DNA from: Negativicutes bacterium
GTDB lineage: Bacteria; Bacillota_C; Negativicutes; Sporomusales_B; JARLHX01
DNA length: 64,000 nt
Direction of reading: 5' to 3'
Assembly (NCBI GenBank): GCA_031292035.1
Contig: JARLHX010000092.1
Span: forward strand, 1-64,000
Numbering within the stretch: the stretch's first letter is position 1; each line of letters starts with the position of its first letter. A program made the translations under genes and the position numbers. Of the stretch, positions 11,836 to 62,196 are shown piece by piece. The notes beneath the pieces were generated by a model. The model worked only from the letters and a program-made list of their open reading frames with translations, ran no database searches and was not told the origin of the DNA.

Positions 11836-12663
11836 TTGTTGCAGACGGCACTTATTATTGATGACTATATCCGCCTTGCTCCTTGTATCGTCACCTTGCT
11901 TGATGTGGGGGTTTTTATCTCTGATTTGAAAGAAATTGTCTATTATAAACCAAGTCAAAGTTTTGATCTCAAAATGCAGTCCGGCTTGCCGGTAAAACCA
12001 GGAATGGCTTCGTATACTGCGATTGAGCAGCGGCGCCGCGTTATGCTGCGCAAGGATACTTCTTATAGTGGTCAGCCTTTTATCACCATCGTCATCCCAC
12101 TTGTCGATGGGAAAAATACGGTCATCGGAACGATGGGGATTACCGAACCGGTTGAACGACAAAATAAGTTGAAAAGCCTGTCGTTGAAACTCAGCGATGG
12201 AATGGGCGCACTAGCCGGCACTACCGAGGAAATTACCGTTCAAGCTGAGGAGATCGCCGCCCTGGCCGAAAAGATCGTAGCTGCCAATCAAGAATCGCAG
12301 GCAAGGGTCAAAGAGACCGATCAGGTATTGGGCTTGATCAGGTCGATTGCAGGACAGACCAATCTTCTCGGCCTGAACGCTGCTATCGAGGCGGCTCGGG
12401 TCGGGGAGCAGGGACGAGGCTTCGGTGTCGTGGCGGAGGAAATCCGGAAGCTGGCGGCAACCAGCACCGATTCAATAAAAAAGATTGACAGTATTATAAA
12501 AGGCGTGCAGGAAGATAGTCGCGCGACCCACGCCAATATCTGCGAAATCCGTAATTCACTGCTGCAGATCGCCGCAGCAATCGAGCATTTTACCGAGACC
12601 ATCCAGGAGAATTCTGTCCTGACGGGACAGCTGGACAAGATAGCCGATGAATTGGTGAAATAA
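11836..12663 (+). CDS. Soluble methyl-accepting chemotaxis-type protein
   Basis: A 275-residue protein with no membrane segment. Residues 1-110 are a small sensory domain resembling PAS/cache-like folds found in soluble receptors of Firmicutes. The C-terminal half is a short MCP signalling hairpin with the tip motif QTNLLGLNAAIEAARVGEQG, which contacts CheA and CheW. The length and plan recall Bacillus YfmS-type cytoplasmic receptors. The start is a TTG with AGGGAGG eight bases ahead. It lies just upstream of a c-di-GMP riboswitch unit but that has its own promoter. The ligand is unknown. Confidence 0.85.
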   Translation: MLQTALIIDDYIRLAPCIVTLLDVGVFISDLKEIVYYKPSQSFDLKMQSGLPVKPGMASYTAIEQRRRVMLRKDTSYSGQPFITIVIPLVDGKNTVIGTMGITEPVERQNKLKSLSLKLSDGMGALAGTTEEITVQAEEIAALAEKIVAANQESQARVKETDQVLGLIRSIAGQTNLLGLNAAIEAARVGEQGRGFGVVAEEIRKLAATSTDSIKKIDSIIKGVQEDSRATHANICEIRNSLLQIAAAIEHFTETIQENSVLTGQLDKIADELVK

Positions 12664-12732: not shown

Positions 12733-12761
12733 TTGACCCTGTTCGGGAAATAACATATAAT
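12733..12761 (+). promoter_or_regulatory. Sigma-A promoter of the riboswitch transcript
   Basis: TTGACC at 12733-12738 and a perfect TATAAT at 12756-12761 are separated by 17 bases. The start point would fall about 12768, just before the c-di-GMP aptamer. Confidence 0.88.
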
Positions 12762-12778
12762 AACTGGTAATAAAGTAA

Positions 12779-12868
12779 TATTTGGCAAACCTGCCGAAAG
12801 GCAGGGACGCAAAGCTATGGGTCTACAGTCGCTATCGCGACAATGATTGCCAGGCCGCCGTGCTAGTT
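12779..12868 (+). ncRNA. Cyclic di-GMP-I (GEMM) riboswitch aptamer
   Basis: The sequence carries the conserved GEMM blocks in order: GGCAAACC, a hairpin closed by a GAAA tetraloop, GGGACGCAAAGC, TATGGGTCTA, a second variable hairpin, and GATTGCCAGGCCGCC. The GAAA loop and its receptor and the G that pairs with c-di-GMP in this class are present. A terminator hairpin follows at 12883, so control is most likely by transcription termination. The aptamer's CCTGCC could also pair with the terminator arm GGCAGG, a possible switching pairing. It controls the uncharacterised gene at 12977. Confidence 0.93.
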
Positions 12869-12882
12869 TTAGACTAACATGC

Positions 12883-12911
12883 AAAAAGGCAGGCAGTCCC
12901 TGCCTTTTTTG
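12883..12911 (+). terminator. Terminator of the c-di-GMP riboswitch expression platform
   Basis: AGGCAGG-cagt-CCCTGCCTTTTTT forms a stem with a T6 tail 15 bases after the aptamer and 66 bases before the next gene. Its position makes it the regulated terminator. Confidence 0.88.
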
Positions 12912-12976
12912 TTTTAGCCGGTTGGCTGATAGAAGACCTTGGTGCGAGAATTTTCAGGATAGGAGAACATCGTGAC

Positions 12977-14092
12977 ATGGCTGGAGAACTGAACAACCCC
13001 CAGGGAGAGAGAATCGTCGACAAGATGGCCGAGATTCGCGACGGTTCGAGTGACTCAACGTCGCGCAGGGAACGGCGTGAATATCAGAAATTTGTCAGGA
13101 AAACCAAAAGCCTGGAAGCTCTGCGCGATTTTTCCTATACGGAATTCGACTACGCGCCCCATCTTGAACGGCAGGAATTCATTCCTCTGCCAACGCCGGA
13201 CTATGGTTATCTTGTTACCGATGCCGAGGCAAAAGCCAAGGCTGACACGACCTATCGAAGCCGGCTGACGGAGATCGCTCTCGCCGTGGGCCTTGGGATT
13301 GCTTTGGATGTCATTTTTATCAATCTGACCGGGATTTTATCGCTGTTATGTCTGGCTGGGGGCGGAATGGCGGTTCATCATCTGCTGGAAAAACGCCGCA
13401 GAGCCATTCTGAGGGCAATGGAGATCGCCAGGCTTGAGGGTGTACGCCTGGTGGCGGAATTTGAGGCAGGTTTGGACAAGGCCAGGGAAGATTTTCTCCA
13501 GGAACAGGATGAACGGATCAAGGCGATTGAAAATATTTTGTCCGGGATTCCCAGTGCGATACTGACGGCGTGTGAAATCGCCGCATCCCAGGTGGAGGTG
13601 CCGTTTTTTCTCCGGGGCCGCATCGAGTTGGCGAAAAAGGAACCGGTGATTCATCTCGAACTGCCGGACATTCACTTTGTTCCCACCGCTGAGTGGGAAG
13701 AGTCAAAAACCGAGGGATACCGGGTAATCGAGCGCACACCGACCGCGATCAACCGGCAGTATGCCGAGGCGACAACCTCGGCGCTGTTTCAGGTGGCTCT
13801 CCGGATTCTGGAGCGCGTGCCATCCTTGGAGGAGCTTGTCATCAACGGCTTCACCCGGGGGGAGGGCGGCGAGTCTTGCCGGATGAGCGTGCGGGTGAAA
13901 CGCGAGGATATCCCGCTGATTGTGGCTGCTGACAGCGGTGTTACTTTAATGGATCAGTTAGGCAATATCCATGTTCTGACCGGCGCTTCGTTGGCGGCCG
14001 TGGATGCAGTGGCTGTCGAATGGACAGAGAAGGCAGTCGGTCAGGAAATACTGCGCAGCAGCATCTGTGTGTCGTATCAAGCCACCGACTGA
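12977..14092 (+). CDS. Uncharacterised membrane protein under c-di-GMP riboswitch control
   Basis: I do not recognise this 371-residue protein. A charged, Arg/Glu-rich N-terminus (1-100) is followed by two adjoining membrane helices (about 100-138), a long charged helix likely to be a coiled coil (about 140-190), and a C-terminal soluble domain with mixed strands and helices. There is no signal peptide, so both ends probably lie in the cytoplasm. Only the start fits the binding site AGGAGA, about 12 bases ahead. Expression depends on the c-di-GMP riboswitch in its leader, which in other bacteria often controls motility, adhesion or exopolysaccharide genes. The role here is unknown. Confidence 0.85.
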   Translation: MAGELNNPQGERIVDKMAEIRDGSSDSTSRRERREYQKFVRKTKSLEALRDFSYTEFDYAPHLERQEFIPLPTPDYGYLVTDAEAKAKADTTYRSRLTEIALAVGLGIALDVIFINLTGILSLLCLAGGGMAVHHLLEKRRRAILRAMEIARLEGVRLVAEFEAGLDKAREDFLQEQDERIKAIENILSGIPSAILTACEIAASQVEVPFFLRGRIELAKKEPVIHLELPDIHFVPTAEWEESKTEGYRVIERTPTAINRQYAEATTSALFQVALRILERVPSLEELVINGFTRGEGGESCRMSVRVKREDIPLIVAADSGVTLMDQLGNIHVLTGASLAAVDAVAVEWTEKAVGQEILRSSICVSYQATD

Positions 14093-14172
14093 CTGCTGGC
14101 TGTGTCTGTCGTCCGCGCAGAAATTAAGAGTTATTCAATCAATTTTCGCGTGTTTTTTCCCCGAGCCGCCAT

Positions 14173-14200
14173 TGACAATCCCTACCTGCTTTGATACAAT
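14173..14200 (+). promoter_or_regulatory. Sigma-A promoter of the pyr operon
   Basis: A perfect TTGACA at 14173-14178 and TACAAT at 14195-14200 lie 17 bases apart, giving a start near 14207, immediately before the first PyrR-type leader element. Confidence 0.92.
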
Positions 14201-14217
14201 GCTACTAATAAGATATA

Positions 14218-14312
14218 GCCTTTAAACTGGTCCTGTGAGGCCGGGAAGGTCGATTATAGCGTTTATTCGTTTGGATTGGCCTTCCTGCGCTCACCTGCAG
14301 GGAGGCTATTTT
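14218..14312 (+). promoter_or_regulatory. PyrR-type attenuator 1 of the pyr leader
   Basis: The stem-loop CCTTTAAACTGGTCCTGTGAG followed by GCCGGGAAGG matches the PyrR binding loop (consensus TCCNGNGAGGCY in the loop, CCTT/AAGG base). A terminator follows at 14279-14312: GCCTTCCTGC pairs with GCAGGGAGGC and a T-rich tail. GGAAGG of the binding stem can pair instead with CCTTCC of the terminator, the expected antiterminator. Known PyrR proteins bind the loop when UMP is high and favour termination. No pyrR gene is in the window. Confidence 0.88.
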
Positions 14313-14337
14313 GATTACCAGGCTGTTTTGAAAAATG

Positions 14338-14440
14338 AATACCTTTAAGCTGGTCCTGCGAGGCCGGAAGGAAAACTTTAGGTTACTGACAGTATGCCTT
14401 CTTGTGCCGCGCGCCAAGGAGGCATTTGTGCATCTTTTTT
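14338..14440 (+). promoter_or_regulatory. PyrR-type attenuator 2 of the pyr leader
   Basis: A second copy: ACCTTTAAGCTGGTCCTGCG leads into AGGCCGGAAGG, again with the PyrR loop pattern. The terminator arms are ATGCCTTCTTG (14394-14404) and CAAGGAGGCAT (14415-14425), followed by a T-rich tract to 14440. GGAAGG can pair with CCTTCT of the terminator. It ends 57 bases before pyrB. Two attenuators in series should multiply the repression by uridine nucleotides. Confidence 0.85.
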
Positions 14441-40293: not shown

Positions 40294-42252
40294 ATGCTGT
40301 GTGAAGGTAGGCAAAAGAGCAGCGAAAAAACGCTGCGGCAACAAAATGAATATCTGGCACTGCTCCACCAGACGGCGCTGAGTTTGGTCAACCAACTGGA
40401 TCTGGATGCGGTGTTGAACCGGATTGTGATTAGCGCTGCCAGGCTGGTGGGCACGCCCAATGGATGCATTTTCCTGCTGGACAAGGATAAGGGGATATTT
40501 ATCAGGACTCACGGCGTCGGAGTCTATGAACACGATATCGGAGCCACGAGAACCCTGGAAGAGGGCTTGATCGGCATTGTATATAAGACTGCGGCGCCGG
40601 CGCAAGTTGGACAATATTCCGGCTGGCAGAAGCGGGTTTTGTCCCCGATTGTGGATCAAATTCACGCCATGCTGCAGGTGCCGCTGAAATCGGGCCAACA
40701 GGTCGTCGGCGCGATTGGTTTGGCTTATCTGGAGGACGGCGAGACCTTCGGTGAAGAGGAGGTCGAAATCTTGAGCCGATTCGCCGAACTGGCGTCGATT
40801 GCGCTGGAGAACGCCCGTCTGCACACCGCCCAGCAAGCCGAACTGGCCGAACGCCAGAAGGCGGAAGAGGCTTTGATTAGTAGTGAGGCCAACAACAAGG
40901 CCCTCTTGGCAGCCGTACCGGATACCATTTTCCGCTTTAACCGCCAGGGGGTGCTGCTGGATTTCCGCCTGGGGCGGGAACCGGTGTCCTGGATACTTCC
41001 GGCAGCCGGCGGCAGCAGCATCAGCGCCGTCATGTCGCCGCAAATGGCCCAGAATATCCTGCGGCACGCTTTGCTGGCCGAGCAGTCTGGCGGTATAATG
41101 GAGTTTGAATACAGTGTCGGCGATGGAACGGCCTGGGAGGTGCGGATCGGGACCAGCGGTCGGGGTGAATTTCTGGCCATTGTGCGCAATGTCACCGAAC
41201 GCCGGGAAATGCAGAGCCGCCTGGAGTATCTGAGTATGCATGACGCTCTCACCGGGCTTTTCAACCGCTACCGCTTTGAGCAGGAAATGTTCCGGTTGAG
41301 CAAGGGCGGCGGACGGGCCGGGATGATCATCTGCGATGTGGATGGACTGAAATTTATTAACGATTCGCTGGGCCATGAGGCCGGCGATGCCTTGCTCAAG
41401 ACTACGGGGACGATTTTGCGGGAGGTTTTCGCCGCAGAGGATATTGCAGCCCGGGTGGGGGGCGATGAATTCGCTATTCTCCTGCCCAACCGGTCGCATA
41501 GCGAAGTGGAGCAAGACTGCCGCCGGCTGCAAAAATCGGTCGACAGCCATAACCGGGAGAATCCCGGCCTGCCGCTCAGCATTTCCATCGGTTTCGCCGC
41601 CAGTTCGGAGGAGCTGGCAGAGATGAGTTCGCTGTACAAAGAGGCTGACAATTATATGTACCGGGAGAAGCTGCACCGCAAGACCAGCATCCGCAGCTCG
41701 ATTGTCCAGGCCCTGATGAAGGCGATGGAGGTCAGGGACTATGCCACCCAGGGCCATGCGCAAAGGCTGGAGATTTTGACCGTCCGGCTGGCCGCGCGGC
41801 TCAGGCTGCCAGATCACTCGATCGGCGACCTGCGGCTTTTGGCCCAATTTCATGATATCGGCAAGGTGGGGATTCCGGACCGGATTCTTTCTAAGGCCGG
41901 GCCGCTGACAGACAAAGAGCGGCTGGAGATGAGGCGGCACAGTGAGGTGGGGTTCCGACTGGCCCAGTCTATACCCGAACTGGTTCCTATTGCCGACTGG
42001 ATTTTGAAGCATCACGAATGGTGGAATGGACAAGGTTATCCGCTGGGGCTTCAGCGGCAGGAAATTCCGCTGGAATCCCGGATCATTGCTGTCGTCGATT
42101 CTTTCGATGCGATGACCAGCGACCGGCCGTACCGCAAGGCCATGAGCTTAGAAGAAGCACTCGCCGAGCTGGTGCGCTGCAGCGGGACTCAGTTTGATCC
42201 CGATATCGTGCCGCTGTTTGTCGAAATTGTGGCCGAAGACCGGACTGAGTGA
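40294..42252 (+). CDS. GAF-PAS-GGDEF-HD-GYP bifunctional c-di-GMP protein
   Basis: A 652-residue cytoplasmic protein. Domains in order: a GAF domain (about 25-185), a PAS-like domain (about 195-310), a GGDEF domain with intact GGDEF in ARVGGDEFAIL, and an HD-GYP domain with FHDIGKVGIPDR and HHEWWNGQGYP. It can in principle both make and break c-di-GMP, with the GAF and PAS parts setting the balance. The inhibitory RxxD before GGDEF is absent. Dual proteins often have only one active half; here both motifs are intact. GAGGGG lies nine bases before the ATG. Confidence 0.93.
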   Translation: MLCEGRQKSSEKTLRQQNEYLALLHQTALSLVNQLDLDAVLNRIVISAARLVGTPNGCIFLLDKDKGIFIRTHGVGVYEHDIGATRTLEEGLIGIVYKTAAPAQVGQYSGWQKRVLSPIVDQIHAMLQVPLKSGQQVVGAIGLAYLEDGETFGEEEVEILSRFAELASIALENARLHTAQQAELAERQKAEEALISSEANNKALLAAVPDTIFRFNRQGVLLDFRLGREPVSWILPAAGGSSISAVMSPQMAQNILRHALLAEQSGGIMEFEYSVGDGTAWEVRIGTSGRGEFLAIVRNVTERREMQSRLEYLSMHDALTGLFNRYRFEQEMFRLSKGGGRAGMIICDVDGLKFINDSLGHEAGDALLKTTGTILREVFAAEDIAARVGGDEFAILLPNRSHSEVEQDCRRLQKSVDSHNRENPGLPLSISIGFAASSEELAEMSSLYKEADNYMYREKLHRKTSIRSSIVQALMKAMEVRDYATQGHAQRLEILTVRLAARLRLPDHSIGDLRLLAQFHDIGKVGIPDRILSKAGPLTDKERLEMRRHSEVGFRLAQSIPELVPIADWILKHHEWWNGQGYPLGLQRQEIPLESRIIAVVDSFDAMTSDRPYRKAMSLEEALAELVRCSGTQFDPDIVPLFVEIVAEDRTE

Positions 42253-61242: not shown

Positions 61243-62196
61243 ATGCTGTATTTTAAAACCGATATTTATGATGAGTTTCGCTGCGTGATGTGCGGGACGT
61301 GCTGTCGCAATGACTGGTTGGTGACAGTGGACGCAGGGGGTTATGAGCGCAACAAGGCCCTTTTTGCTGCAGCAGGCAAGGCGGCGGAATTTGAGAAGGT
61401 CTTTATCCTGCTCAAAGATGGCGGTCCGGGGGAATACGCCGCCATCGCCAAACAGCCGGACGGCGGCTGCTGGTTTCTGGGCTCCGACAATCACTGCCGT
61501 CTGCACCGCGAGGCAGGCCATGGCCACCTGGACCCGGTCTGCCAGCTCTTTCCCCGCTATCCGGTGAATACCACCCGCGGCGTGGAGCTGACGCTGAGTT
61601 TCAGCTGCCCGGAAGTGGTCAGACTGGTGAGCAGAAGGGCGCCGCTGGCGGTGATCCGGTCGGAAGAGCCGGGAGCCTATATCCCGCCTGACAGCTTTGT
61701 GGCCGGAGTCTACCCGGAGCAGCAGCCTGTCGATACGCCGCTGCGCCATTATTTTGAGCTGGAACATCATTTTAGCGATATTCTCCAGCAGCGGTGTCTG
61801 CCGCTCGCCGAGCGTCTGGACCTGCTAAGGGCCACGGCGCTGGCATTGGAGGGGCTCAAGCGGGACGAAGAATTTCGGACGGAGTTGGGCAGGATTATCG
61901 CCGCTAACTACCGCCTTCTGGACGCCAAGGCAGGGGCGGAGAATGCCGCACCGGCTGAGGCCGAGATATTGCTGGAACACTTTTTTGTCAATCTGGTGTT
62001 CAAGAAGATCTTTTATCTGCACGGCCTGGCAGAGGGCGTCAGGCTGCTTTCAGCCGTCTGGGGGGCGATTGCCGCTGCGCGAGAGCAGGCGGCCGAGCCG
62101 GCTGCCGACCTGGAACGGACCCGCGCCGCCGTGATGGCCGCGGAGTTTGAGTATAGTCACCATCGCCGCAGCCTTTTGGGCGAGCGGGAAAAATAA
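61243..62196 (+). CDS. Flagellin lysine N-methylase-like (FliB family)
   Basis: A 317-residue protein. The N-terminal FRCVMCGTCC (Cys14, 17, 20, 21) and the later CWFLGSDNHCRLH and CQLFPRYP cysteines match the FliB/YkgJ-type metal-cluster fold. In Salmonella FliB methylates lysines of flagellin; related proteins exist in many bacteria without proof of that role. No flagellin or flagellar gene is in the window. The C-terminal third is helical and less conserved. It may be cotranscribed with the GNAT gene. Confidence 0.82.
   Translation: MLYFKTDIYDEFRCVMCGTCCRNDWLVTVDAGGYERNKALFAAAGKAAEFEKVFILLKDGGPGEYAAIAKQPDGGCWFLGSDNHCRLHREAGHGHLDPVCQLFPRYPVNTTRGVELTLSFSCPEVVRLVSRRAPLAVIRSEEPGAYIPPDSFVAGVYPEQQPVDTPLRHYFELEHHFSDILQQRCLPLAERLDLLRATALALEGLKRDEEFRTELGRIIAANYRLLDAKAGAENAAPAEAEILLEHFFVNLVFKKIFYLHGLAEGVRLLSAVWGAIAAAREQAAEPAADLERTRAAVMAAEFEYSHHRRSLLGEREK

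Follow-up and report, generated by a model that had tools for sequence, protein, structure and literature searches.

A class I c-di-GMP riboswitch, predicted to act as an OFF switch, ahead of the gene for a fast-diverged Negativicutes membrane protein

The window, as the 64,000-nucleotide stretch of Negativicutes DNA analyzed here will be called, carries an entire c-di-GMP-I (GEMM-I) aptamer ahead of an open reading frame of 371 codons (ORF371; 12977-14092, plus strand). The reading that we favor, and consider reasonably probable as a whole, is that the riboswitch is an OFF switch through which ORF371 is made at low c-di-GMP, and that ORF371 is a fast-diverged member of a family of Negativicutes membrane hairpin proteins whose soluble parts are cytoplasmic. 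The aptamer, the promoter and terminator consensus, the open reading frame, its homologues, the private linkage of riboswitch and gene, and the long branch of ORF371 were each computed directly; the start of transcription, the ligand, the OFF sense, the topology, and the role of ORF371 are what we infer. The regulatory part is ordinary, and what is noteworthy is the private linkage together with the fast divergence of ORF371. On this reading, the c-di-GMP-I regulon of Sporomusa-type Negativicutes would gain a target of unknown function.

Leader elements and the predicted sense of the switch

A cmscan of the window matched RF01051 (c-di-GMP-I) at 73.5 bits (E 1.6e-12; gathering score 35), with an alignment that spans the full model (1-87 of 87) at 12774-12862 on the plus strand. 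The sequence-only reading had claimed a match to the GEMM-I consensus with a promoter ahead of it and a terminator behind it. The Infernal match, well over gathering, bears out the first of these, and the other two were recovered as a sigma-70-type promoter, TTGACC-17-TATAAT, at 12733-12761 (plus strand; 11 of 12 consensus matches), and an intrinsic terminator at 12883-12909 (plus strand) with a hairpin of 11 pairs, a 5-nt loop, and a T-rich tail. Promoter-like sites with at least 9 of 12 matches number 6 between 11.6 and 14.6 kb (2.9 +/- 1.8 in shuffles), and terminator-like sites in the same region number 9 (3.5 +/- 2.0 in shuffles). The GAAA tetraloop stem and the conserved GGCAAA and GGACGCAAAG blocks are all present in the aptamer, and its family membership points to c-di-GMP as the ligand of 12774-12862. 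A G is found at both 12784 and 12785, one of which we take to be G20, the ligand-specificity position of class I RNA. One report describes a crystal structure of a G20A class I RNA with cGAMP (PMC6274999). The start of transcription would lie just 3' of 12761, the leader folds more stably than its shuffles (z -3.96), and AGGAG at 12961-12965 (plus strand), 11 nt 5' of the ATG, is a probable ribosome-binding site. A GTG open reading frame of 6 codons (12972-12992), out of frame with ORF371, overlaps its start, the GTG being 6 nt past the same AGGAG; translational coupling of the two is possible.

The sense of the switch was examined with equilibrium folding models, which exclude tertiary contacts. 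With the aptamer pairs forced, the probability of the terminator was 0.997, and in the unforced leader it was 0.38, from which an OFF switch is predicted; even unforced, the terminator thus forms 38% of the time. Among randomized controls, terminator probabilities of 0.38 or below were reached by 1.5% when linker and loop were randomized (n=400), by 0% when the loop alone was (n=300), and by 0.5% when arms, loop, and linker all were (n=400). The gain in stability of the antiterminator before the 3' arm of the terminator is made (8.5 minus 4.9 kcal/mol) was matched by 16-19% of randomized controls and is not significant. When a transcript that stops at 12898 is folded unforced, the minimum-free-energy structure joins 12845-12851 to 12892-12898 and 12854-12856 to 12888-12890, so that part of the 3' half of the aptamer (12845-12856, plus strand, the predicted antiterminator strand) would block the 5' arm of the terminator. 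In the full unforced fold, the tetraloop and 3' arm (12796-12805, plus strand) of the aptamer stem at 12790-12805 capture the 3' arm of the terminator, aided by a 9-base repeat, AAAGGCAGG, present at 12797-12805 and 12885-12893. Folded by itself, the aptamer stretch (to 12862) is more stable in a non-native structure, and keeping its native pairs costs 5.0 kcal/mol.

In the mechanism proposed here, the nascent leader, transcribed from just past 12761, would fold into the c-di-GMP-I aptamer. When c-di-GMP is bound, the aptamer would hold 12845-12856 paired, the terminator at 12883-12909 would form, and transcription would stop. At low c-di-GMP, the 3' half of the aptamer would pair with the 5' arm and loop of the terminator, the stem arm 12796-12805 could also hold its 3' arm, and with the terminator blocked, transcription would read through into ORF371. 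Since read-through would be confined to low c-di-GMP, this mechanism describes an OFF switch, and we regard it as likely that the riboswitch is a transcriptional one that shuts off ORF371 when c-di-GMP is high. Control of the next gene, as claimed earlier, is supported.

One report (PMC11477304) describes the class I c-di-GMP riboswitches of C. difficile as transcriptional OFF switches and those of class II as ON type, with flagellar and adhesion genes among the known class I targets. The class II riboswitches are a precedent for the opposite sense, in which binding of c-di-GMP promotes read-through into ORF371, and the pre-terminator energy measure is not decisive between the two. We nevertheless hold an ON switch to be unlikely, as forcing the aptamer lifts the terminator probability from its unforced value to near certainty and at none of the nine transcript lengths folded did an intact aptamer stand in the way of the completed terminator. 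The predicted OFF switch has in common with class I riboswitches of C. difficile (e.g., that before the flgB operon) the class I aptamer, a termination platform, and the OFF sense, although in the window this sense is a prediction and the target is a single membrane-hairpin protein. According to two further reports (PMC11218506, PMC4933901), the class I riboswitches Bc1 and Bc2 of Bacillus thuringiensis likewise lie in the 5' region of their target genes; unlike the window riboswitch, Bc1 has two terminators within a long platform, and Bc2 precedes the gene of a collagen adhesion protein. A literature search for a c-di-GMP riboswitch paired with Negativicutes, Sporomusa, or a hypothetical membrane protein found no such paper in the library searched; in a separate search, the one paper among the matches listed that names Pelosinus concerns a purine riboswitch candidate (PMC4521916).

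An alternative is that the real output is the leader RNA released by termination, or else transcription that continues into the downstream pyr operon, with ORF371 incidental in either case. Termination would release a leader of roughly 145 nt, and no terminator is listed between the stop of ORF371 (14092) and the pyr promoter (14172-14200), but the pyr operon has its own promoter (11 of 12 matches) as well as PyrR attenuators, and ORF371, which has a ribosome-binding site, starts 67 bases past the terminator stem; we hold this explanation to be very improbable.

ORF371 and its family

The reading frame of ORF371 shows a coding bias of +0.21 (the remaining five frames give -0.06 to -0.56), and its GC3 of 0.63 falls within the range of 17 other genes of the window (0.55-0.77). 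A hydropathy scan places a hydrophobic stretch, probably a two-helix hairpin, at codons 96-134 (13262-13378, plus strand). The structure model predicts helices at residues 77-112 and 118-189, with a poorly modeled turn between them (block 111-120, pLDDT 56). Beyond the hairpin, codons 137-189 (13385-13543, plus strand) belong to the second of these helices and probably form a cytoplasmic, coiled-coil-like stalk (pLDDT block means of 86-96 across 131-190), followed in the model by a C-terminal alpha/beta domain at codons 190-330 (13544-13966, plus strand) that weakly resembles the C-terminal domain of the cation-diffusion-facilitator protein MamM, which makes it at most a candidate for a domain of the MamM or YiiP kind. 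This agrees with the two membrane helices, coiled coil, and soluble domain described earlier from the letters alone.

The hydropathy scan found no hydrophobic stretch in residues 1-95; a KRRR cluster lies C-terminal to the hairpin, and the flank N-terminal to the hairpin is neutral in charge (3 K/R, 3 D/E). On these simple grounds of hydropathy and charge, the N- and C-terminal soluble parts are both probably cytoplasmic, which counts against the surface factor that had been suggested. A second hydrophobic stretch was found near residues 250-293 in 24 of 30 aligned family members with a lenient hydropathy scan, and in ORF371 at 333-347 rather than 250-293. Structure models make the 250-293 stretch a helix of the alpha/beta domain; a third membrane pass there is possible, would change the topology, and leaves some doubt about it. 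A guess that we hold only weakly is that ORF371, tethered to the membrane, acts in the cytoplasm as a scaffold or regulator for the planktonic state, when c-di-GMP is low.

With E values up to 1 allowed, ORF371 matched nothing in Pfam, NCBIfam, PHROGs, or PADLOC, and a single PDB sequence was returned (E 0.48); neither a solved structure nor a clear fold was matched. A protein database search returned only ORF371 itself among 8000 scored candidates, and a pattern scan of genome contigs found no relatives. The pyrB gene downstream, with 80% identity to Pelosinus, led to a direct search of Pelosinus-group genomes, which gave homologues in 9 of 10 (E 4.5e-22 to 6.4e-12 with ORF371 as query), and the view of ORF371 as an orphan protein was therefore abandoned. 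An additional weak match in one genome (G008; E 0.007) is a kinase-like open reading frame. For the order to which the closest relative belongs, 22 of 28 genomes had a homologue, and for the Negativicutes 47 of 300 did (48 matches); these sets and the Pelosinus-group set overlap. An undescribed membrane family is thereby brought to light, carried once per genome by 46 of the 47. G123, alone among the 300, carries it twice (L165 and L167), and both copies fall in the ORF371 clade.

ORF371 aligns with the members of this family over its full length and shares with them the hydrophobic stretch and the C-terminal region. Its identity to the members is 19-27% in an alignment of 30, and local matches reach 28.7%. 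All 30 aligned members have a hydrophobic stretch, 33-51 residues long, that falls within positions 77-146. Ten columns of the alignment are invariant (M1, R31, L46, Y59, R180, P230, P236, Q261, E264, and P282), and it should be noted that ORF371 keeps these by construction, since it belongs to the alignment. By sequence comparison, then, the family is one of widespread, undescribed, and uncurated Negativicutes membrane proteins of about 370 residues. The earlier statement that ORF371 has no known family stands with respect to Pfam, NCBIfam, PHROGs, PADLOC, and PDB and fails in that an uncurated homologue family exists; ORF371 is a strongly diverged member of it and not a solitary novelty.

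Weak Pfam matches were scattered among the 30 aligned members, the commonest to YwiC (5 of 30; best E 0.0006), and the best of the weak NCBIfam matches was to TatA (1 of 30; E 5.5e-5). The alignment matched ATP synthase subunit b among PDB sequences (E 0.037) across the coiled coil. All three identities were rejected as noise from membrane helices and coiled coils. One of the 30 members matched SLATT_6 (E 0.0062 in Pfam, 0.0097 in NCBIfam), which ORF371 itself did not. A role as a sporulation gene was also considered: of 56 genomes with Spo0A_C, 38 are among the 47 that carry a homologue and 18 are without one, counts that are confounded by kinship and reveal no tight link.

Linkage of riboswitch and gene among relatives

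Scanning of all 48 homologue loci with Rfam (in sets of 9, 20, 10, and 9) yielded no RF01051 match at the gathering score; relaxing the threshold to E 0.5 for 13 of these loci, the nine of the nearest clade among them, brought up none either. Upstream sequence at the loci extends at least about 0.7 kb, with some ending at 0.7-1.5 kb at the edge of a contig. RF01051 occurs over cut-off elsewhere in all 47 of the homologue-bearing genomes (9 of them in a set of 10 genomes and 38 of 38 in another set), and its absence from the homologue loci therefore makes the pairing with ORF371 private to the window among the genomes searched, which comprise 300 genomes as a sample of the class and, for the host, the 64-kb window. 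A conserved riboswitch-gene pair was rejected on the count at these 48 loci, and the homologue loci lend no comparative support to the regulation of ORF371. The riboswitch is thus dedicated to ORF371, as had been claimed, in the window and at none of the homologue loci. Compared with the other family members, ORF371 sits on an extreme branch, lies before pyrB, and is the only one with the riboswitch.

Across the ten closest relatives RF01051 gave 48 matches, 46 of them over cut-off, and 9 of the 10 genomes had a match. From these 48 loci 30 were fetched, one of which had no open reading frame, the target being defined as the longest open reading frame starting within 700 bases. By eye, the starts of the targets at these loci resemble those of chemoreceptors, response regulators, secreted lipoproteins, UvrC, and others, and none resembles ORF371 (best BLASTP E 0.48). 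The fetched aptamer nearest to that of the window (87% over 78 nt; L262 in genome G135) precedes a lipoprotein-like open reading frame, and the expression platform of the window has no match among the fetched loci, a combination consistent with a common element having been captured or shuffled. At four loci from four close relatives (L247, L256, L261, and L262), RF01051 precedes lipoprotein-like open reading frames that are similar to one another.

The surroundings of the homologues also differ from those of ORF371. In the stretches fetched, uraA or a superoxide reductase gene is found at 37 of the 48 homologue loci and neither at the remaining 11, which include all nine of the closest clade. 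At all nine loci of the Pelosinus group (L081-L089) the homologue is flanked by a divergent uraA on one side and a superoxide reductase gene on the other, and at 8 of these 9 a PyrR element was matched at the gathering score; the block often adds a protein of approximately 210 residues. A mobB-like open reading frame lies nearby, by eye, at 6 of 10 other loci (L160-L162, L164, L166, and L168 among L159-L168). In genome G123, one of the two copies (L167) is followed, by eye, by motA/motB-like open reading frames. When the 64-kb window was searched for these two genes, nothing was found for uraA at E up to 1, and superoxide reductase gave only a match of E 0.17.

Divergence and possible role of ORF371

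The ten nearest of the 300 genomes by pyrB are 84-88% identical to the window in that gene. Neither ORF371 (tblastn, E 1e-4) nor RF01051 (gathering score) was found at their pyrB loci, for which 4.4-13.5 kb were fetched, in some cases ended by contig ends. A homologue of ORF371 is located elsewhere in 8 of the 10, G135 and G103 being the exceptions. In a tree of ORF371 and 33 of the 48 homologues, ORF371 groups in the clade of these relatives (support 99/96 in a 10-row set). Its branch measures 3.01 against a median of 0.39, while pyrB differs by 12-16%, and we are unsure of the exact placement of so long a branch. Read most simply, the gene would have been relocated or duplicated, have gained its link to the riboswitch, and have diverged fast; ORF371 may be a paralogue or a relocated orthologue, or may have been transferred from an unsampled lineage.

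The same branch length could mark a relaxed, decaying copy to which the riboswitch came by rearrangement and for which it matters little, and the position of ORF371 away from the usual neighbors of its family, with a linkage that is not conserved, would fit such a history. What argues against decay is the intact frame of 371 codons with its own-frame coding bias and a GC3 within the range of the window, as well as the intact promoter, aptamer, and terminator; the ten invariant columns are also kept, which is true by construction. We consider decay a minority explanation, doubtful but not negligible. ORF371 could also have arisen if a copy, duplicated or moved, of a housekeeping-like Negativicutes membrane protein was captured by the c-di-GMP OFF riboswitch and then underwent unusually fast neofunctionalization toward a c-di-GMP-controlled role, a scenario that we put forward as speculation. 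If true, it would offer a traceable gain of a riboswitch coupled to neofunctionalization, and close strains would reveal how such a gain reshapes a gene.

The earlier proposal of a new surface or motility factor appears improbable. Flagellar and adhesion genes are among the class I targets elsewhere, chemoreceptor-like and response-regulator-like proteins stand, by eye, behind other RF01051 copies in close relatives, and the flagellar export family PF01312 is matched in 47 of 47 homologue-bearing genomes, with only weak matches in G010, G041, and G123. PF01312 is, however, also present in 120 of 253 genomes that lack the gene, in a comparison confounded by kinship; the soluble parts of ORF371 are probably, if not certainly, cytoplasmic; and those neighbors at homologue loci that were recognized are uraA, superoxide reductase, or mobB-like genes, with motA/motB-like open reading frames seen by eye behind L167.

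Several other features of the window were recorded. Directly 5' of the riboswitch, 11836-12663 encodes a short protein of 275 residues with an MCP signaling domain (E 2.3e-26). GGDEF proteins are encoded at 1506-2891 and 40294-42252, the latter with an additional, sub-cut-off match to the model of a c-di-GMP phosphodiesterase family. Tandem PyrR-type attenuators precede pyrB, one at 14215-14315 (55.8 bits; gathering 54) and a sub-threshold one at 14338-14432 (38.9 bits), and a protein resembling the flagellin lysine-N-methylase FliB, over the NCBIfam cut-off, is encoded at 61243-62196.
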